A stretch of DNA of 29,720 nt from the NCBI RefSeq assembly GCF_000003605.2, contig NW_003120922.1, forward strand, positions 192,051-221,770. The letters are read 5' to 3'. Below are positions 16,001 through 29,166 of this stretch, one piece after another (the first letter of the stretch is position 1; each line of letters opens with the position of its first letter). Below the pieces are notes generated by a model. The model was given only the letters and a program-made list of their open reading frames with translations, searched no databases and was not told where the DNA came from. A program made the translations under genes and the position numbers. The DNA is from Saccoglossus kowalevskii. Taxonomy: Eukaryota > Hemichordata > Enteropneusta > Harrimaniidae.

Positions 16001-19000
16001 TTAATGTTATATTTTATGTTTTTGAAATTTGAAATGACTATTGAAAACAACTTGACCAATCAGTAATGCCTTCATGTATGTCCATGTATAATTTCATTTG
16101 TGTACTTTGCACATTGTAGTAAATCGGCCAACGATGGATAATGGGTGGGTTCCTAATGACTTCCATAAAAGGATATTCTTATTTTTAATGAAGCATGCAA
16201 TTAAATGTTTTATAAATATTTAATAATTTTCCATAAAAAACATTCATGCCGTCATGCAGTTCACTGTATTCCCATTTGATTAATAGTTTTTATTTTGTAA
16301 GAAAAAAAAGAATTGCGTTTTTTAATTGCATATTCATTCCATAATCAAAGCGCTACTGGTTTCAATTTGTAGCAGGAGCGAGTCATACAGTGTTATTTCT
16401 GTTTTGTTACAGACAAGACCAGTCAGAGGCTGTTCAAACAGTGATTGCTACCATGGCAACCACCTCATGCATCCTCCCAAGTGATGTTACGGAAGATACA
16501 AAAGAACATTGCTGTGAAAAACCGCCGTGGGAGTTAAAAAGAAAAACAACAATTCCGAAAGTGAAAGAAGAAACCGAAAAAGTCCTGGATGTTTTCATAC
16601 GACGAAGTTTAAGTATGAATGATGCATCACCAAGACGAAAATATATGATTAAAATTCGCAGACAAAACGGCAGAGGAAGAACAATTACTAAATGTCAGAT
16701 ATTGAGGAAGAAAGTCAGTTCAAAAGAGAACCAAGTTATCGCGAGGCTGCTAGACACTCAGTGATGAATGATCTTGAATGCTCGGATTATGATGATGACG
16801 ATGAGGAATCCAAACCAATGTCTAACTCTGCACCGGGAAGTTTACATTACCGTGTTGAATTAAAACCGACAGAAGAAACTTTGAAAAAAATGGAAAAACT
16901 TGATCTTTTACCTCATAGTGAACAACCAACGACAAAAACGAAAAAGAAAAAGAAGCATTCATTTTCAAGTATTGCCCGGTCGATACAGTCTTTTTTGAAA
17001 TCTCCGTCAGTGTCCAAGAAAAAACATGACTGGGAGGAAGAAGAAAAGAAAGATGCGTGTAAACAGGAAAATGAGTCAAAAAAGGGCGGAATTAGAGCCA
17101 GTATTCGACGAAAGCTCAGAAGAAAATCATTAAAAGACAACCAGCGATATTCCATTGACAGCGTACTTACTCCTTCTTCAACTTCTACAGCAGGTAATCA
17201 GTTAGCCATAATATATGACATCATATAATATGCAGATCTATAATGTTTTGCATCAAATCTGCAAAATAACATGAAATGACATCAAATGTGCAAATTAGCA
17301 TGATATGACATCATCAAATATTCAAATTAACATTCAATGACATCATCAAATATGCAAATTAATATGTCATTGGTTAGATTTATACTAGTCATCCAATCAG
17401 GCTTATTGTTTTAACATGAGTGGATTAGGATTGTTTAAAAATTGTTATTGAAGTTTATTTTATTTATTAAAGATGAAGTCCCTCATGTACTGTAAATGCA
17501 TTAATTATTCGTTAGTCTTTAATTCTGCTAAATTAAATCAATGTGAACATGTACACAGTAGAACACATTGTTTTCCTGCCACGTTTGTGAACTTAAAACC
17601 AATTGAAATTACTCAAAACATCAAAATAGTGAAATTAATTACCAGTGAAAATAAATAGTCCCACAGTATTTGTATATATTCAGCAATATTTTTTTTGTAG
17701 GTGCTATAACTCCTTCATCACTCTCATCAGCTGAGATTCTAGACTCACCAAAGTTTTCGAAAAAACACAAGAAACACAAAGGATTTGGTGATGCCACCAC
17801 TCCGGGCAGTGAAGGTATTGTTGCGAATGGTGAAATCCTACATGGACATAAATCAGCCGACTCTGCACCATTGTTCAACATTGAAATTGACGATAATATG
17901 ACAATTAGCGGTGATCAATTTCACAGCGGCCGTAGCAAACATAGTGACTATGCCAGTCGATCTGCAGCATACAGACTGCAAGGAGATAATAAACGAGAAT
18001 CAAAAGAAAGTGAAAAAATCAAAAACTATCCTGATTATGTTCCTCCATTGCACTGTACAGCTACAACGGGAGTCTCTCAGGACGACACCGACGGACCAAA
18101 CTTCAGCAGAGAAAATGACTCAAACCAGCCTCAATTTAGATCTCTGAGTGCAATGTCTGGCCCACCGAGGCCAACATCTTTGAATGTCAGTCCGCATACC
18201 TTACGTTCATTTGATAGACTAGGACAAGTGGAGAATCTGGGACTGAATGGTAAATATCAATGTTAGTTTCTTCTGGCATTGAAATGCCATCAATTGGATC
18301 TAACCAATCATAAGCTGTGCATAATTACATGCACATCTTGTAGTGATCGATGACGTTAATCCAATCACCTTTGTCATCAAACAGATCCAATATCGTACCT
18401 ATCTAACAAAACCCATCAAAAGAATACACTGTATCACCTTACAAACATACAAAGATGTATCTCACACACATAACCCACTGTATTATCTTACAAAGACATC
18501 CCACACTTATAAAACCCATTGTACCTACTTTACAAACCCATTCCACACAAAACCCACTGACATACCCTCAGTACCTCTCAAACCCAATCTACTGTATAGA
18601 CAACCCACATGATAACCTACTCATTCATTTAAATGCTAACGCAACCCCATACAAACCCATTCACCATCACACAAACTAACAAACAACTCATTCCAATCTT
18701 TTCCGCTTTCCTCAGGTATCACAGAGGCTATAGAAGTTGAGATGAATGAGAGAGATGGATTGAGAGCCTCAGGAGCTCATGTTGTCAGACTCTCCGCGGA
18801 TGTTGTTGAAGATTGTAGTGGGTCTGTAGAAGGTGAGATGATAAATTCTTGTATTCAGTTATATTGCAATGTATTAGAAACATAACTTACAGAAAATGTG
18901 CGGTGTTCACAGGCCGATCAAAGTACATCATTTCATCACTGGTTATTTCACCATTCATTTCCTAACTAACAGAATGCAATAATATTAACATGGACATGTA

Positions 19001-21367
19001 TTAGATGAAATTCATGTACCAGTTGTCTTTTTTTTTCTTCTCTACTAACTTCACTGTCTTCTACTTTCTTACGTGCTTTCCTCTCTCACCATTAAAAGAT
19101 AACACAACTCATCGTTACTATTACATAATAGATGGCATTAGACCCCGTGTTATACTTATACCAGCCGAAGGTGAGATATATACATATACACTGTATCATA
19201 CAGATAACATAAATGGATTGGTGGCAGTCCTTGTTTAATGGAGATAAATCTACACTGTGACAATGTATTACATGTCTTGTATGATTGTTTCATCTGCATG
19301 GTCTTGTCTTGTTTTGTTATTCCTATCTTTGTAACTTGTATTCCTATTCATTCAATTTTGAATAATTTTTCATTTAGGAGTAGGCATGTCCAAAAAATGA
19401 CCCCTTAAAGGTCACACATCCTGGTACTTTTTGATTGAACAAATTTAATACAGATGAGAATTTGTCAATAACTTTCACCTGCTTAAAATTAGAGTCCTAA
19501 AATTAAAAATTACTTCTTTAATTTCTGCTGGGAAAGCAGAGAGTGCCAGGATGTATGACCTCGAGGAGACATGCATAGTGCCAGGATGTATGACCTCTAG
19601 GGGTCATGCATAGTGCCAGGATGTATGACCTTTAGGGGTCATGCTTATTGTTGTATCATATTATTCACTAGAATTCAGTTTCCCCGTTAAACTCATCCTT
19701 TGCTTTGTTTCCATGGCAATAGACTTTAGCAGTGATGAAAAGTATAAACCCTTCAAGGATCGATCAGACAAAGAAAAGGAGGCCCTCTATGAGAAGATTG
19801 CAGCCAGGTTGGCTGCCATTGGTGACAGAGTCACAGTGGACCATGCGGTTGGCGAATCCATGGCTGATGAATTAATTGGTGCTGTTGGTGGTAGCAGCCC
19901 CTCTCCAAAGAAAGGTGTGTATAAAAGATAATTGTGCTGTAATGAAAGTTCCTTTTCTTTCTTATCCTCCAATTCCAGTCAGGTTTATTTTGCATCAGAC
20001 AATTAATTACGAACCATATTAACCAGTAAAGGTCTTATTATATATACACTTCCCAGTCACCTCTGTTATATTCAGTTTTATGGTAATTTAATTCGTTTTC
20101 ACATTATTGTAAATTATTAAGGAGTGGGTCTCTATTCTATAATGCTACAAGTGGAAAACCCTGATCATATCGAAAAACATCACCCAAAGAACAACACTTT
20201 CTTTGGCCCTTGGAAACGTGTTAAAAAATGAAATCAGTTTCAACTAGTCGTATGATATTTTTAAGAGAAACATGAGAATTATGCGAATATTGCACTAAAA
20301 AACAACAACACATGTTTTTTGTCCCTACTTGTGGACCAGTAATCATGTTTACTGCAACTTAAGTTGTACCAAATTTATGTTCAAATTTCTGTGTTTACAG
20401 TAGCTAACATCAAAATGCAAGTTACATCTCAAACTTTTTTGTTTGTTTAGAAATTCAAGAAGAAATTATTGAGATTCCAATTGATGAGGAAGAGATCCCA
20501 TTCACAGAAACTGATGCTAGGCAACTAGGATTAAGATTACGTCATCATGGCGATAGACGGTCAAGTTCAGAACTAGTAAGTTCAAAATACTAAAAATAGA
20601 ATATTCATGTTTTTGTACATGTCTGAAACATCACAAACAATGTTATAAGTGTTAATAAGGATTTCAAAGTAAAACATTTTTTTTTTTTCGCTTTCAGTTT
20701 TCTATACCTTTATCTGTATTGATGTCGGTCGTGCAGAACACCCGCTATGATACGTTTAAAGGCGTTGCCTCACATCTGATCGGTAATGACACAAGTTGGC
20801 GAGGTTTGTCATTGGTTTTGAGGCTAACTGGTGATGCTATTAAACTAGCTGGGCGTACACCGTCAGCGGTAACGCAAATTAAAGACAACAGTGTCAAGTT
20901 CATTAACGATAAACTCGCCGGATGGATCGCAAGTCAGGGGGGATGGGTAAGTGTTTTTGGTGTGTTGTTTTTTAGAACTCAAAGATATAGAACGTTTTAA
21001 TTCCCATTCAGATGTCATCCCAAGAAAGGGAAAGCATTGTGAACTGTTTTGTTTCTAGCAATATTTGTATTTTTATGTTTACTTGGATGAAATTTCATGA
21101 AAGTCCATACGACAGTGAATTATTCAATAATAAAAACAGGTTTTCCCTTATTTGTATAATTCAAAAATTTTTGTTTCTCGTGCAATAAAAATTGCATGAC
21201 TTCAACAAAATTTGTCACCCTCTACAAAATTGTATTTCTCCATCCATGTGTTATGATTATTAATATGAAAAGGCAGCCATTGAGTAAATATTTAATTTTT
21301 TGTCTTGTAGGAGTCTGTAGTTGAAGAAAGTATAAGTTCATCAGGATCTGAGACTGAAGTCGACTGA
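3975..21367 (+). CDS. BCL2L14-like: Bcl-2 family protein, BCL2L14 (Bcl-G)-like; ten-exon gene model
   Basis: Gene-level entry; coding exons are 3975-4004, 4204-4259, 16413-17193, 17701-18249, 18716-18832, 19099-19170, 19723-19914, 20451-20575, 20698-20946 and 21311-21367. Seen: all junctions are GT-AG and keep phase (0, 2, 1, 1, 1, 1, 1, 0, 0), apart from one net missing base inside exon 3. The product would be about 742 residues: a charged low-complexity N-terminal two thirds, a BH3-like motif near 561-570, a second near 625-634, a BH1-like stretch around Trp675 and BH2 around 717-730, ending in GSETEVD. Known: this BH3-BH1-BH2 order defines the Bcl-2 fold, which controls mitochondrial apoptosis through BH3-groove contacts. 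Lack of a C-terminal transmembrane helix and an acidic end fit BCL2L14 better than BAX, BAK or BCL2. Inferred: a cytosolic apoptosis regulator, of unknown pro- or anti-death sign. It is longer than mammalian BCL2L14 (a little over 300 residues). Confidence 0.85.
4005..4203 (+). other. Intron 1 (199 bases)
   Basis: Starts gtaaac and ends in a T-rich tract with tctag. No other feature was seen. Confidence 0.55.
4204..4259 (+). CDS. BCL2L14-like: Exon 2
   Basis: The acceptor is a T-rich tract ending in tctag at 4203; the donor is GAAAG|gtaacg at 4260. The 56 bases encode VEEPTQRSVAEIQCEDFE plus two bases of the next codon (phase 2). The first base of exon 3 completes that codon as AGA (Arg) and continues without a stop, which is the main evidence that exons 1, 2 and 3 belong together. 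The acidic composition (five Glu and one Asp in 18 residues) matches the rest of the N-terminal region. No domain is recognised. Confidence 0.6.
6634..6677 (+). repeat. 22-base tandem duplication
   Basis: GGGGTAAAGTTCAAAGGGTA occurs twice, starting at 6634 and 6656. Non-coding. Confidence 0.8.
7418..7583. mobile_element. MITE-like element, family A, copy 2
   Basis: Begins TACTGTAAATGCATTAATTA and ends AAATGGTTCTACAGTA. The same interior string (AACTCATTGTTTCCTTGACA) occurs in copy 1. Non-coding. Confidence 0.7.
10780..10941. mobile_element. MITE-like element, family C, longer copy
   Basis: Left end ATGGTATTTGCTCTATTA; right end GGAGCAAATACGGTA. The interior has AACCAAAAATCACATTTG, then AATATTATTTATTTT and AACACATG near the right end. 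The last two are absent from the 112-base copy, which is therefore an internal deletion derivative. Confidence 0.7.
12689..12848. mobile_element. Decayed family C copy
   Basis: Retains GCAAACCAAAAATCACATTT on the left and TAAACACATGTGTTACT towards the right. The ends are too mutated to define termini. Confidence 0.35.
13967..14030 (+). repeat. Two tandem units of about 32 bases, each with a palindrome
   Basis: Both units contain TAGAGGGTAC. The first carries GGGTACAGGTGTACCC (13980-13995), the second GAGGGTA-CATA-TACCCTC (14011-14028). The palindrome is kept although its bases differ. Confidence 0.6.
14774..14930. mobile_element. MITE-like foldback element, family B, copy 2
   Basis: The left end is TACTGTAAAACACTTTGTTT and the right end AAAGTATTTTACAGTA, near-perfect terminal inverted repeats that continue inward (GGAATTAATTTTC against its complement). 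The interior shares GTATATTCACTGGATTTTAT with copy 3. No coding. Flanking TA bases are compatible with a TA target duplication. Confidence 0.75.
16413..17193 (+). CDS. BCL2L14-like: Exon 3, charged N-terminal region, contains an apparent frame break
   Basis: The acceptor is ttttgttacag at 16412 and the donor gcag|gtaatc at 17194. The first part, 16413 to about 16690, reads in one frame (QDQSEAVQTV..., then a basic stretch with RRSLS near 16602-16616 and RRKYMIKIRR). From about 16692 the coding character moves to another frame (MSDIEEESQFK..., DYDDDDEE, a lysine run KTKKKKKH, then IARSIQSFLKSP and RRKSLKD). The exon is 781 bases and would need one more base to join exon 4 correctly. The shift coincides with an AAA run at 16690-16692, so a one-base loss or assembly error is the simplest explanation. 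Content is largely disordered, with short basic amphipathic segments and RRxS motifs that resemble PKA sites. An in-frame ATG at 16453 has an ideal Kozak context and is a plausible internal or alternative start. Confidence 0.8.
17276..17370 (+). repeat. Three tandem units of about 30 bases in intron 3
   Basis: Units begin ATGACATC at 17276, 17305 and 17337 and contain CAAAT(A/G)T(G/T)CAAATTA. Two include the octamer-like ATGCAAAT or a close variant. Confidence 0.7.
17488..17668. mobile_element. MITE-like element, family A, copy 3, inside intron 3
   Basis: The left end TACTGTAAATGCATTAATTA is identical to copy 2 over 20 bases; the right end is AAATAGTCCCACAGTA. It lies immediately upstream of the exon 4 acceptor and could influence splicing of that exon. 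Confidence 0.7.
17701..18249 (+). CDS. BCL2L14-like: Exon 4, Ser/Lys-rich disordered region
   Basis: The acceptor is a run of T ending in gtag at 17700; the donor is AATG|gtaaat at 18250. Phase 1 at both ends, and the split Gly codon at each junction is intact. It encodes about 183 residues: GAITPSSLSSAEILDSP, a basic FSKKHKKHKGFG patch, a hydrophilic middle (NIEIDDNMTIS, HSGRSKHSDYASRSAA) and a Pro/Ser-rich end (SGPPRPTSLNVSPHTL). No folded domain is recognised; the composition suggests an intrinsically disordered linker carrying SP phosphorylation-type sites. The exon length is divisible by three, so skipping would keep the frame. Confidence 0.85.
18250..18715 (+). other. Intron 4 (466 bases), G-poor repeat
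   Basis: Between about 18380 and 18690 the sense strand is almost free of G and full of ACCCA(C/T)T strings, a divergent tandem repeat of roughly 40 bases. It ends in a good pyrimidine tract and tcag. Confidence 0.8.
18400..18690 (+). repeat. G-poor divergent tandem repeat, ACCCAYT-rich
   Basis: The strings AACCCACTG, AACCCATTG, AACCCATTC, AACCCACTG and AACCCAATC recur at roughly 40-base spacing on the sense strand, with very few G residues over about 290 bases. Confidence 0.55.
18716..18832 (+). CDS. BCL2L14-like: Exon 5, 39-codon cassette
   Basis: The acceptor is ttccgctttcctcag at 18715; the donor is GAAG|gtgaga at 18833. 117 bases, phase 1 to phase 1. It encodes GITEAIEVEMNERDG, then a hydrophobic-alternating stretch around HVVRLSADVVEDCSGSVEG. 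No known motif. Strong splice sites and clean phase support it; it would be an in-frame cassette if skipped. Confidence 0.8.
18833..19098 (+). other. Intron 5 (266 bases)
   Basis: Starts gtgaga and ends with a C/T-rich tract and ttaaaag. Nothing else was seen. Confidence 0.65.
19099..19170 (+). CDS. BCL2L14-like: Exon 6, 24-codon micro-cassette
   Basis: The acceptor is a C/T-rich tract ending in ttaaaag at 19098; the donor is CGAAG|gtgaga at 19171. 72 bases, phase 1 to phase 1. It encodes NTTHRYYYIIDGIRPR followed by VILIPAEG, a short beta-prone hydrophobic peptide unlike the surrounding disordered sequence. Its 3' edge (GAAGGTGAGA) matches that of exon 5. The acceptor is weaker than its neighbours, so inclusion may vary. 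Confidence 0.65.
19398..19428 (-). repeat. Inverted partner of the 35-base minisatellite
   Basis: ATGACCCCTTAAAGGTCACA followed by CATCCTGGTACT is the reverse complement, with a few mismatches, of one unit of the minisatellite at 19542-19646. A transcript of intron 6 could fold into a hairpin with a loop of about 115 to 180 bases. Confidence 0.7.
19542..19646 (+). repeat. Minisatellite, three 35-base units
   Basis: Units start AGTGCCAGGATGTATGACCT at 19542, 19577 and 19612. The second halves differ slightly (GGAGACATG against GGGGTCATG). It lies in intron 6, about 75 bases before exon 7. Confidence 0.85.
19723..19914 (+). CDS. BCL2L14-like: Exon 7, first BH3-like motif
   Basis: The acceptor ends in ggcaatag at 19722; the donor is AAAG|gtgtgt at 19915. 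192 bases, phase 1 to phase 1, 64 codons. A charged lead (DKEKEALYEK) runs into IAARLAAIGDRV at 19797-19832. That matches the BH3 pattern hydrophobic-x3-Leu-x3-Gly-Asp, followed by Arg and a hydrophobic residue. The motif lies about 105 residues before the BH1 tryptophan, too far for the canonical core BH3, and may replace the alpha-1 (BH4-position) helix. The tail, GAVGGSSPSPKKG, looks like a flexible linker. Inferred: an extra BH3-like helix or a BH3-resembling alpha-1. Confidence 0.88.
19915..20450 (+). other. Intron 7 (536 bases)
   Basis: Starts gtgtgt and ends in a T-rich tract with gtttag. No repeat or coding signal was seen. Confidence 0.85.
20451..20575 (+). CDS. BCL2L14-like: Exon 8, canonical-position BH3
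   Basis: The acceptor is a T-rich tract ending in gtttag at 20450; the donor is CTA|gtaagt at 20576. 125 bases, phase 1 to phase 0. It starts with an acidic stretch (EIIEIPIDEEEIP) and then carries ARQLGLRLRHHGDRR. Within this, L-GLR-L-RHH-GD at 20525-20554 fits the BH3 pattern exactly. The Asp is 41 residues before the BH1 Trp, the same spacing as in Bcl-xL (from memory, about 42), which makes this the core alpha-2 BH3. RRSSS follows directly, a PKA-like site next to the BH3. Confidence 0.88.
20576..20697 (+). other. Intron 8 (122 bases)
   Basis: Starts gtaagt and ends with a long T run and cgctttcag. It separates the canonical BH3 from the BH1/BH2 exon. Confidence 0.9.
20698..20946 (+). 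CDS. BCL2L14-like: Exon 9, BH1-like and first half of BH2
   Basis: The acceptor ends in cgctttcag at 20697; the donor is GGATGG|gtaagt at 20947, phase 0 at both ends, 83 codons. RYDTFKGVASHLI followed by SWRGLSLVLRLTGDAI (Trp codon 20797-20799) matches the alpha-3/4 to alpha-5 pattern of the family: Tyr-x2-Phe-x2-Val, then (N/S)W and a hydrophobic helix with a Gly. The normally Gly-rich BH1 core is TGDA here. After a polar helix (INDKLAG), BH2 begins with WIASQGGW at 20923-20946. The Trp-to-Trp spacing between BH1 and BH2 is 42 residues, close to the family value. This is the strongest evidence for the family call. Confidence 0.93.
20947..21310 (+). other. Intron 9 (364 bases), splits BH2 after Gly-Gly-Trp
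   Basis: Phase 0, gtaagt to cttgtag. Its position, directly after the Trp of GGW, matches the intron that splits BH2 in vertebrate BCL2 (after Trp195), a shared trait of multi-domain Bcl-2 genes. Confidence 0.92.
21311..21367 (+). CDS. BCL2L14-like: Exon 10, end of BH2 and acidic tail, stop
   Basis: The acceptor is tgtcttgtag at 21310. It encodes ESVVEESISSSGSETEVD and then TGA at 21365-21367. ESVVE completes BH2 after GGW (compare the D-x-F-V-E type ending in BCL2 relatives). The remaining 13 residues are Ser/acidic with no hydrophobic segment, so there is no C-terminal membrane anchor. Mammalian BCL2L14 also ends shortly after BH2 with an acidic end (from memory). Confidence 0.9.
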   Translation, partial: ESVVEESISSSGSETEVD

Positions 21368-22305: not shown

Positions 22306-22582
22306 ATATATGGTCGTTGTGACATTGCAATGCCAATATACTTCTACAGGCAATGTATATACTATGTATGTAACTTTTAGAACTACAATTATCGACTTGA
22401 AATTATCCACTTTGCTTGTATCAGTAAAATGTAGCCAGATTGGCTGATTGTTTATTGAATTTCAGTCAATCAAAGTTCATTTAAGAGGCTGTTGTGTTTC
22501 CTGCAGTATTTGTCAAATTTTAAAATATTTTTTTTTTTATTTTGAAAATGTTGGTTGTGGGGTTTTGGTATCTTCCAATGTA

Positions 22583-22672
22583 TCCAAGATGGCCACCATA
22601 TTCAAGATGGCCACCATATACAAGATGGCCACCATATTCAAGATGGCCACCATATACAAGATAGCCATCATC
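22583..22672 (+). repeat. 18-base tandem array, five units, alternating
   Basis: Units of CAAGATGGCCACCATAT plus one base alternate between a TTC and a TAC lead, giving a 36-base higher-order period. Each unit contains AAGATGGC, a YY1-type core. Apparent reading frames through it (DGHHIQ, KMATI) are by-products of the period being divisible by three. Confidence 0.85.
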
Positions 22673-23364: not shown

Positions 23365-24619
23365 AATACATATTCAAATGTAAAAAAATAATTTAAAATA
23401 AAAAAAGCCCAACCTCTGATCTTATTTTAATCTGAATGAAAATTGTCGACACGGTGGACACAGTTTTGACCTCTATGTGTGCGTGCGTCTGGACCTGTAT
23501 CTTAGAAATGCCTGAACCAATCACAGTCAAACTTCATACATACATCATACATGATATTATACATGTGCACGTCAATTTGTTTCACGATCTGATTCAAGAT
23601 GGCCGAATGACGGCCATTTTTGTGCTAAAAATCATCAAAATCAAGCATTTCTCAGCTGTTTACAGATGGGTTTTGTTCAAACTTGGTATATACATTAGAC
23701 ATTATAGGACCTTGATGCACATCATTTTGTTTTACGATCTGATTCAAGGTGGCCGAATGGCGGCCATTTTTGTGCTAAAAAATCAACCATTTCTCGGCTG
23801 TTTACAGATGGATTTTGTTCAAACTTGGTATATACATTAGACATTATGAGACCTTGATGCAAATAATTTTGTTTTTCAGATAAGATTCAAAATGGCCGAT
23901 TTTGTATTAATGAATGTGGTTCTCGTGCCATATCTCTGACTTGCTTTCACTGATTATGTTCAAATTTTAAATATTCATTATACATCATGTCATAGATAAA
24001 CAGATATATTGGTTTGACGATCATACATGTATTCATAATGGCCAAATGGTGGCCTTTTTTGTGCTAAACAATCATCAAATATCAAGCATTTCTGGCATTT
24101 ATAGATAAATTTTGTTTTAATGAATTGGCTTCTAGACCCATATTTTCAAATTTTAAATATTCATTATACATCATGTCATAGATAAACAGATATACTGGTT
24201 TGACTATCCTATTCAAAATGGCCGAATAGTGGTCATTTTTGTGCTAAAAAATCATCAAATATCAAGCATTTATGGGTGGATTTCGTTCAAACTTGGTACA
24301 TACATTAGACATTACGGGTTCCTGATGCTCGTCATTTTATTTTTCAGATTGGATTCAAAATGGCTGACTGGCGACCATTTTGTTTTAATGATTGGGCTTG
24401 TAGAGCCATATCTCTTAAATGCTTTGACTTATTATATTTAAATTTTATATATTCGTTATACATCATGTTATATATATATATACACATGTATTCAAAATGG
24501 CTGATTTTGAATGCTGTTCCAGAGCAATATCTCTCAATGTGGACAAGTACTTGTTTGGCAATCAGATACAAATGTCAATCATTTTAATGTTAAAAAATCA
24601 TATTCCTGACATGGTTATT

Positions 24620-24670: not shown

Positions 24671-25500
24671 TCCATGCGTCCGTGCATCCGTTCGGAGTCA
24701 TATCTCAGAATCCCTTGGACCGATTCCGTTCATTCTTTGCATGTTCCTAGTACTTTATGTGGGACATATGCACATGCAGTGGTTTAGCGATTCGATTCAA
24801 AATGGTCGACTGGCAACCATCTTGTTTTTTGAAAATGTTGTATTTTGGACATGCTTCGTCAGTTTTCATTCAAACTTGGTACATAGATTATACATGTTAG
24901 GATACATGTCCATAACGATTTGTTTCACAATTGGATCAAAGATGGCCGACTGGCAGCCATCTTGGTTTTTGAAGTGTTGTATTTTGGACATGTTTGTCAG
25001 TTTTCATTCAAATTTAGTACATACATCATACCTGTTAGGATACATGTCCCCAACCGTCAGTGAGTTCCTGTGTCCGTCCGTCCGTGTGTCCGTCCGTCCC
25101 TGCGTCAATCTGTCCAGAGTCATATTTCAGAATCCTGTTGACCGATTCCATTCATTCTTTGCATGTGCCTAGTACCTTATGTGGGACATATGCACATGCA
25201 TTGGCTTAGCGATTCGATTCAAAATGGCCAACTGGCAGCCATCTTGTTTTTTTGAAAATGTTGTATTTTGGACATGTTTTGTCAGTTGTCATTCAAACTT
25301 GGTACATCATAGACTATACATGTACATGTTAGAATACATGTCCATGACGATTTATTTCACAATTGGATCAAAGATAGTACTAAGTAGACTGGCAGGCATC
25401 TTGTTTTGATTGTTTATGCGATATCTTGGACGTGTTCTGTCAGTTTTCATTCAAATTTGGCACATACATGTACTTTATACATGTTAGGATGCATGTCCAT
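24671..25500 (+). repeat. Two 422-base higher-order units inside the array
   Basis: GAGTCATAT at 24695 and 25117, and the following CATTCTTTGCATGT, TATGTGGGACATATGCACAT and TTAGCGATTCGATTCAAAAT, recur at an offset of about 422 bases, close to three of the 140-145-base basic units. Confidence 0.75.
25073..25099 (+). repeat. TCCG microsatellite
   Basis: About six TCCG units interrupted by GTG, at the junction between the two 422-base units. Confidence 0.85.
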
Positions 25501-26500: not shown

Positions 26501-28302
26501 TTTTATGATAGTCTGGTCTTGCTCCTATGATTTTGCCATGGAGGTCAATGGCTGATCATGACATTGACTAGCAGATAAATATAGCATTCTGGTAATCTGA
26601 ATATGATAATTTTTCAAACAATAGATTAGACTTTCATTATCCCTTGTTTTGCAAACTGGCAGAATGAACAGGAGTCGAAAATGAAATAAAAATAAAATTT
26701 TATTTCAGCGTAATTTCTCGCGCCCACCAAATTGTAAGTGCAAAAAATTACTAAAAAAAAATTATTTTTATCTTCATTTTTTTTCCACTCGCCGCATAAC
26801 AAATCCAAGTTGCATTTTCGTGGGAGTATCATGATCAAAGTACCAAAGTCTTGCGCAGATGAGAAACAATTACAATTCTTTGAGAATCACACAAATCTAA
26901 TATGGGGGAAAAAAAAATTTTTTATTTTTTTTCCGTCCTCAAAAAATTTGCCTTATAAAAACTTAAGAAACAACGAATAAAAAAAGTCTGGCCTTAGTCC
27001 TCATATACTCACTTCTAATGACAATTTCTGTTAGGATTGCCTTTCAAGATTTGCTTACTTTCTCTATTACGGAGCGAGTTATCAGTAGAATGGTTGTTGG
27101 GTTTTCCTGACTTTCATACATTTTCCCATGTGATAATTGCTTGTGGTTGGCCTGTATTACTGAAATAACTATTGGCTTCAGACAAGACTCCCTCAATAGA
27201 TGAATGTTCCACTAAGTAATAAATGCATGATATGTCGTCAGTTTCCTTACATATTTTAAATATTAATAATTCAATATCAACCTTGGTTTGTATTATAATT
27301 TGAATAGTCTATGTGCAGTTTGTGATGTCAGACTGAATTACAGCAGTTCTGAGAATTATTTGGACAGTTAGCTAGCAAGATGACTTGTAACTTTGCGAAA
27401 CACTTTTGTTTTTGCTTTGTTCTAATCTTGACAATGTCGTTTGACTGATAACATGCAGTCTGGGATTCATTATTTTATATGATTTGCTAATTTGATTTGA
27501 TGATTTGCACACATTCAATAATTTTTTTTTGAGTATCAACATTATATGTATTCAAGAAAGTAAAAATAAATCACAATAACCTGTTTCTGTATTCTAGTGA
27601 ATGTGTATCATTTTGAAAATCTGCGCTTTACCCTAGTCTAGTATGATAATGGAATGATCTAAACTTTATGCACGTGCCGATGAAACCAAAGTGTTTTGCA
27701 AAGTTGTTAAGTCATATCTTGCCGACTGTTGGAATAATTTTCAGTCTGTAAAACTATTAACTGGTTAACTTGCATAGAGGAAGGATTATAGCACTTTGAG
27801 CAAAGCTTCAGTAACACACTGAACACAGCTTAAAACTCTTCAAGTTGTATTTTGAAATATATTTTGGTTTGAATATTTAACGTTTGAAGTAGTATGTGAC
27901 ATAAACAAAATGCAAAAATTGTGGTATTCTCAAAGTTTTTTTTTTGCAAATTGAAAATTCGGTTAATTAAATGTTTTATCAGCATTTTCAAGTTTACCAA
28001 ATTGCATTCAGAACTATTCAACCATTGATTCGAACATGGCTGGGTGTAGCTAGTGATAAGGATGTCATTGGTGTTTGCTTGAGAAAAATTTATAGCTCAC
28101 ACATTTAAAAAAAAAAAACAGACACTACATCCATAATCACAATATATTACTTTATTTACATCAATATCATTATCACATTAAATGACAATTTCAGGTAAAT
28201 TCTTACGACTATTATTGCTCCAGATTTACATATATTCATTGTAACACAAATAGAGTTCATAGGTCAAACCAAATCAAATACAGTGCCGATCCCCGTTCCC
28301 AT

Positions 28303-28359
28303 CCCGAGCCCGAGCCCGAGCTCGAGCCCGAGCCCGAGCCCGAACCCGAGCCCGAGCCC
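28303..28359 (+). repeat. CCCGAG hexanucleotide tandem repeat
   Basis: About nine CCCGAG units with single-base variants (CTCGAG, CCCGAA). It is an island of high GC in AT-rich DNA and lies in no supported exon. Confidence 0.9.
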
Positions 28360-29166
28360 AATCTCCACCCCCATGGCCCCACGATAAGCAGTCTATAGAG
28401 GCAAGTACTAGACTAGACTTAATACGCAAGTACTAGCTGACACTAACAGCCATGTACCACCTATAATACACATGTTACAAACATCACCACGGAAACTGTC
28501 TACAGCTGCACCAGGATGTTGACACATTTACATATAATCTCATAATACTGAGCAATCTCATATTTTCATAATTTTGTACTTTTTAGATGTATTCATTTGT
28601 TTTGAACTCACTATACAGTAAAAGAACCAGTTTTATTGTGTTTTTCACATTTTCACATGAAATTATAGCGAAACTTAAACTGTGTAAATAATGAATGTAT
28701 TTTTCATAGTTACTATAGCAACCAGCTTAATATTTATGCTGTCACACTCGCCACACACATCATTTAACACTTAAGAAAAAAATCATTCAAATGCGAAGTA
28801 ATTAAAAAGTCAAATACTTAAAATATACTTAGTATTTTATAGCATTAACAAAAAGAAAGATTTCAAATCAAGTCTATGACACGATATATGAATATTATAA
28901 TACAGTTATTAAACTAGTCAACATATTTGATACAACTAGTTTTAAAAAACAGATTATAAAAGCCACTGAAAAAAAGTGTAATATGGCTATGACTAATAGA
29001 ATGCGATGCACCAATGCACAAAGAGATGCTTTTATTTTTTTAACATCTTATTTCTTTTGATGTTTACGGCAGTTACCTGTCTCCGTGTTCTCTAGTGTTT
29101 GTGGTCACATCATTACAATACACTCAGGGATTAGCCATCGAATGATAAATTAAAAGTATTATCATA

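Follow-up and report, generated by a model that had tools for sequence, protein, structure and literature searches.

A BH3-grade sequence ahead of the helix-2 BH3 in a predicted BCL-G/BFK-like protein of Saccoglossus kowalevskii

When a protein of the Bcl-2 family carries two BH3 motifs in consecutive exons, which of them is the family's own BH3, and what might the other one be? The question is posed by a gene in the window analysed here, a 29,720-nucleotide stretch of DNA from the hemichordate Saccoglossus kowalevskii (RefSeq assembly GCF_000003605.2, contig NW_003120922.1, positions 192,051 to 221,770 of the forward strand), within which all coordinates below are counted. Modelled from the DNA, the gene reads as a 620-residue frame in eight coding exons (16692-21367, forward strand) with predicted GT-AG borders throughout. 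The two motifs lie in its coding exons 5 and 6, which a preliminary description of this DNA had numbered 7 and 8; the names “exon-7 motif” and “exon-8 motif” keep those earlier numbers, and “domain” denotes the last 207 residues of the protein. The reading that we tentatively prefer, without counting it as probable, is that of a BCL-G/BFK-like protein whose helix 1 has a strong BH3 sequence, is packed at rest, and would become a ligand of pro-survival proteins when released.

Two BH3 motifs of unequal grade

The exon-7 motif, IAARLAAIGDRV (19797-19832, forward strand, residues 439-450), offers Ile, Leu, and Ile at the hydrophobic positions h1, h2, and h3, followed by the Gly-Asp pair (GD) and Val at h4; it begins 64 residues ahead of the exon-8 motif, LGLRLRHHGDRR (20525-20560, forward strand, residues 503-514). 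As had been described, codon 439 (Ile) begins at 19797 and codon 512 (Asp) ends at 20554, both motifs satisfy the pattern hydrophobic-x3-L-x3-GD with RLxxxGDR in common, and each begins at codon 26 of its own exon when the split first codon is counted. This last agreement looks coincidental, because the exons differ in length (192 and 125 nucleotides) and in end phase and have no DNA similarity. Canonical spacing to BH1 belongs, as also claimed, to the second motif alone: 42 residues separate the exon-8 GD from the BH1 Trp against 106 for the exon-7 GD, and the same distance is 43 and 45 in the Bcl-XL-like (L001) and Mcl-1-like (L002) genes of this genome, which also holds a Bak/Bok-like gene (L003), all three names being our own provisional reading. 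With A, I, L, M, V, F, Y, T, or C admitted at its first position, the loose pattern has three matches in the 207-residue domain; the third, LSLVLRLTGD (20806-20835, forward strand, residues 556-565), lies in the BH1 region and was absent from the preliminary description.

BH3 quality was graded with a 12-position position-specific scoring matrix (PSSM) built from 29 validated human BH3s out of the 35 sequences tabulated in PMC9171138 (Table 1); BCLXS was left out as the same sequence as BCLXL, caspase-8, HEBP2, MOAP1, and TPT1 for their other lengths, and INK4C for its reversed numbering. The exon-7 motif scores 18.3 bits, a value that exceeds 24 of the 29 leave-one-out scores and is attained by one of 2,000,000 random 12-mers and by none of 2000 shuffles of the domain. 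It ranks first among the 45,474 12-mers that the window and six loci yield in frames running from stop to stop (L004 and L006-L008, copies of the window, were left out; L009 overlaps L002 and L010 overlaps L001, some 12-mers being counted twice), and the BH3s of the Mcl-1-like and Bcl-XL-like paralogues score below it, at 17.6 and 14.3 bits. The Pfam BID profile (PF06393) also finds exon 7, pairing domain residues 17-52 with profile positions 76-109 at E-values of 1.9e-4 on the domain and 0.0023 on the full protein; human BID BH3 is given as residues 86-97 (PMC9171138). At 21.5 bits on the domain and 17.9 on the full protein this match stays below the cut-off of 25 for membership of the BID family. 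A search of the Protein Data Bank (PDB) with the exon-7 peptide returned two matches, neither significant, to a BID chain (E 1.3) and to a designed chain named for MCL-1 (E 1.4). Of the earlier suggestion that exon 7 carries a second functional BH3, the part that concerns its sequence has thus held: judged by its residues, the motif is of BH3 grade.

The exon-8 motif scores 9.5 bits, exceeding 11 of the 29 leave-one-out scores and attained in 40 of 2000 shuffles; elsewhere in the protein, two further sites reach 11.3 and 9.5 bits. It lacks two of the four hydrophobic anchors, with His at h3 and Arg at h4, and the near-equal footing on which both motifs had been placed gives way to a difference of 18.3 against 9.5 bits. 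Its position is that of a BH3 on helix 2 with canonical spacing (42 against 43 and 45 residues), phmmer pairs its GD with that of Bcl-XL, and MAFFT pairs the same GD with the GD of the genome's own paralogues. On these alignments it is the exon-8 motif that represents, in worn form, the BH3 which the family carries on helix 2. A polar h3 also occurs in human BCL-G, whose BH3 is printed as IVELLKYSGDQL in PMC9171138. A further BH3 look-alike, IDDNMTISGDQF, occurs at residues 230-241 in the charged N-terminal region (exon 17701-18249) and scores 11.3 bits, more than the exon-8 motif.

Place of the exon-7 helix and state of the groove

A single-sequence AlphaFold2 model of the domain is poor, with a mean predicted local distance difference test (pLDDT) value of 47.6; it contains helices at domain residues 16-36 (exon 7), 42-54, and 84-96 (exon 8) and five more. 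Their order matches alpha-1, alpha-1', and alpha-2 of BFK and BID, for which PMC8814693 describes this succession and a helix 1 that covers the core. The hydrophobic moment is 0.41 for the exon-7 helix and 0.11 for the second stretch (residues 455-467). Foldseek placed BOK, BFK, and Bcl-XL at the top with query template-modelling (TM) scores of 0.24 to 0.36, and no entry reached E<=0.001. Among the 50 structural alignments listed, for which the first and last aligned residues only are given, 19 start no later than model residue 26, which is residue 439 of the protein; 18 of these are with Bcl-XL or Bcl-2 chains, whose aligned part opens at residues -3 to 7, and one is with BAX. Taken together, the helix order, the low-confidence model, and these 19 alignments favour a place for the exon-7 helix at alpha-1.

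Several observations weigh against this placement or against the function built upon it. The remaining 31 of the 50 listed alignments stop short of exon 7, and 10 of the 50 are with unrelated proteins. In the MAFFT alignment, alpha-1 of the genome's own paralogues falls opposite residues ~475-490 and not opposite the exon-7 helix, and by hand count its core lies ~31 and 23 residues ahead of the GD in the paralogues against 68 here. On the side of function, the apoptotic role of BCL-G has been doubted (PMC10244440), the BH3s of mouse Bcl-G and of BCL2L15 are given as non-functional where PMC9171138 treats them, and the same source warns that patterns drawn from validated BH3s predict new BH3s poorly and yield false positives. 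The alpha-1 place is thus favoured but not settled, because the helix order and a poor model speak for it while the MAFFT alignment and the paralogue spacing speak against it. The structure prediction that had been proposed as a check has given a divided answer: a helix is predicted in exon 7 and its order is alpha-1-like, but the model is poor and MAFFT does not reproduce the placement.

The preliminary description had also envisaged an alpha-1 helix that merely resembles a BH3 and is able to occupy the protein's own groove. As a description of the motif this is too weak, since no score above 6.2 bits, against 18.3, is found among ten further alpha-1 stretches, two of them chosen by eye in this genome and eight taken from elsewhere; these stretches and BH3-B of BID, which in the sequence used reaches at most 2.1 bits, indicate that the BH3 likeness is not explained by an alpha-1 place alone. 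As for the groove, SWRG stands in place of the BH1 signature NWGR (20794-20805, forward strand, residues 552-555), and a functional groove is doubtful because of this replacement. Where BH1 reads SWRR, in Trichoplax Bcl-2L4, a functional groove was judged unlikely (PMC8998228), and BFK, which is without NWGR, is reported not to bind a BID BH3 peptide appreciably (PMC8814693). By these parallels and by SWRG itself, occupation of its own groove by the exon-7 helix appears less likely than its packing as alpha-1 or its release as a ligand.

What the exon-7 helix may do

In the reading preferred at the outset, the exon-7 helix would be buried at rest, packed as alpha-1, and would be released by membrane contact, by the binding of a partner, or by cleavage at TETD/A, a speculative caspase-like site between the two motifs (20504-20518, forward strand, residues 496-500); a caspase-like site appears within residues 451-502 in 151 of 5000 shuffles. 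Once released, the helix would bind the grooves of the animal's own Bcl-XL-like and Mcl-1-like proteins and would thereby promote death, as tBID does. The exon that encodes it (19723-19914) could be skipped without a frame shift because it has 192 nucleotides and phase 1-1, and an isoform without the strong motif may therefore be produced. Nanomolar binding is reported for the BFK BH3 peptide (PMC8814693); a death role of the present protein is not assured. A bolder version, which we consider unlikely, makes alpha-1 itself a functional BH3, a fold-closing helix that doubles as a death ligand while the helix-2 BH3 and the groove have decayed; were it true, a single helix would be both lock and key.

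A different arrangement, possible in our view but not likely, would leave exon 7 always exposed upstream of the fold as a free second BH3, with some other stretch (perhaps residues 455-467) serving as alpha-1, so that the protein would act like a Bcl-2 domain with a BH3-only ligand attached. The PSSM score and Pfam BID match of the motif, the second helix predicted at domain residues 42-54, the MAFFT alignment of the paralogues' alpha-1 downstream of the motif, and the symmetric phase (1-1) of its exon would all suit such a fusion; however, the candidate alpha-1 is Gly-rich and weakly amphipathic (moment 0.11 against 0.41), and those structural alignments that reach upstream, 19 of the 50 listed, begin at or before residue 439. 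The motif could instead be an accident, an amphipathic helix that reads as a BH3 without any binding function. The loose pattern is common, with its three matches in the domain and at least one match in 189 of 5000 shuffled 207-residue domains (at least two in 1 of 5000), and the false positives of which PMC9171138 warns point the same way; but the exon-7 PSSM score was attained in 0 of 2000 shuffles and the ten other alpha-1 stretches do not rise above 6.2 bits, and we regard accident as improbable.

Autoinhibition is suggested by BID, in that the exon-7 helix would restrain the exon-8 BH3 as reported for BH3-B. The order is as in BID and the spacing is alike, 64 residues here and ~53 there (hand count from GHE41 in PMC3369933 and BH3 86-97 in PMC9171138), but the upstream motif is here the better BH3, whereas BH3-B of BID, in the sequence used, stays at or below 2.1 bits, and there is perhaps little to inhibit because neither h3 nor h4 is hydrophobic in the exon-8 motif; a restraint of this kind seems distinctly unlikely. 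It had been proposed, lastly, that exon 7 is the remnant of a duplicated BH3 exon, to which the equal codon position and the common RLxxxGDR lend themselves. The differing exon lengths and end phases argue against duplication, and the best DNA match between the two exons scores 13, a value attained by 999 of 1000 codon shuffles, which average 16.7; their protein match score of 26 is attained by 172 of 2000 shuffles. Such an origin is very improbable.

The gene and its relatives in the Bcl-2 family

All exons are on the forward strand. Coding exon 1 (16692-17193, residues 1-167) is an open frame that follows a stop and ends at a GT donor, its start codon being uncertain; coding exons 2 (17701-18249), 3 (18716-18832), and 4 (19099-19170) have phase 1-1, as does coding exon 5 (19723-19914, residues 414-477, GT-AG borders), which is followed by coding exon 6 (20451-20575, residues 478-519, GT-AG borders), by coding exon 7 of the present model with the BH1 and BH2 region (20698-20946), and by a last coding exon without a transmembrane tail (21311-21367). 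The Pfam Bcl-2 profile (PF00452) scores 33.6 bits on the domain, above its cut-off of 31.4, and 30.6 bits, slightly under it, on the full protein (residues 529-602); BH1 is degenerate, yet the match runs across its region. BH2 reads WIASQGGW (20923-20946) and ends exactly at the exon border, where a GT donor in phase 0 follows. GGW followed by a predicted GT donor is found in 5 of 5 Bcl-2 genes compared, namely this gene, L001, L002, L003, and L005, the last a further BH2 exon of the same genome at a contig end. One extra GGW string in L001, on the opposite strand and without GT, is taken as chance.

Residues 1-413 contain 62 Lys or Arg, 66 Asp or Glu, and 56 Ser, and coding exons 1 and 2 encode a charged, Ser-rich region that is probably disordered. 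Hydropathy along the whole protein reveals no membrane anchor, the highest 19-residue value being 0.86. With BH2 and a BH1 region beside its BH3 the protein falls outside the BH3-only class, and with SWRG for NWGR it falls outside the groove-bearing multidomain class; by its long charged N-terminus, its BH2, its degenerate BH1, and its want of an anchor it looks like BCL-G/BFK. A 103-codon open frame (16453-16764, ACCATGG start, MATTSC...) overlaps the ATG at 16692 out of frame and may reflect an upstream open reading frame, an intron that went unrecognised, or a fault in the assembly, which leaves the true N-terminus unsure. The intron immediately ahead of the strong-BH3 exon holds a tandem repeat (19542-19644, 35 bp, 2.9 copies). 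Downstream of the gene lie tandem arrays at 22581-22671, 23566-23899, and 24797-25049, with units of 18, 142, and 138 bp that each contain ATGGCC, and a frame (28186-28398) in which a 6-bp repeat encodes a PEPEPE run; Pfam matches this frame to PARP at 26 bits where the cut-off is 100, a match that its composition probably explains.

BH3-B of BID is reported to bind and inhibit the BID BH3 (PMC3369933), so that a Bcl-2 fold in which a BH3-like element precedes the BH3 is not new. BID is the closest, if partial, precedent: it has the Bcl-2 fold, its BH3-B lies on the N-terminal side of its BH3, and cleavage takes place between the two (PMC3369933). In BID, however, the later BH3 is good and BH3-B poor, the reverse of the order here, and BH2, absent from BID (PMC8814693), is present. 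The novelty, as the two motifs score, is that the upstream one is strong. BFK/BCL2L15, second among the listed Foldseek entries (E 0.072), has the Bcl-2 fold with BH3 and BH2 and without NWGR, and its alpha-1 and alpha-1' precede a cleavable loop (PMC8814693); its binding BH3 peptide, in contrast, is helix 2, and the present protein differs by a Trp kept at the NWGR place and by its long N-terminus. In Trichoplax Bcl-2L4, compared above for its BH1, the passage of PMC8998228 on its BH1 mentions no second BH3, and in the present protein the Arg two places after the Trp is lost too. BCL-G/BCL2L14 is described as having a long N-terminus and BH3 and BH2 without BH1 (PMC10244440), whereas the Pfam Bcl-2 match still covers the BH1 region here. 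The human BCL-G sequence used for comparison, which matches published values in its length and in the positions of two motifs, contains no second BH3 (best other 12-mer 3.2 bits); local alignment to it, the only member so compared, scores 63 against a top of 60 in 500 shuffles and leaves the two GDs unpaired. GGWE, which follows BH2 in this human BCL-G sequence, is a further likeness.

Two BH3 motifs are recorded for ITPR1 (PMC9171138), and a second BH3-containing peptide has been discussed for Hrk (PMC6927658). A survey of the literature on BCL-G/BFK, second BH3s, BH3-B, and invertebrate Bcl-2 proteins, mostly short of full text, found no comparable protein reported. To our knowledge, neither ITPR1 nor Hrk has the layout of the present protein. 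BCL-G has been called a non-typical Bcl-2 protein, and its conservation across species is named as an open question (PMC10244440). If the exon-7 helix does bind pro-survival proteins, BH3 function can reside off helix 2 in the same fold, and such binding would bear on the origin of the BH3 motif, by homology or by convergence, and on self-inactivation of the kind known from BID.

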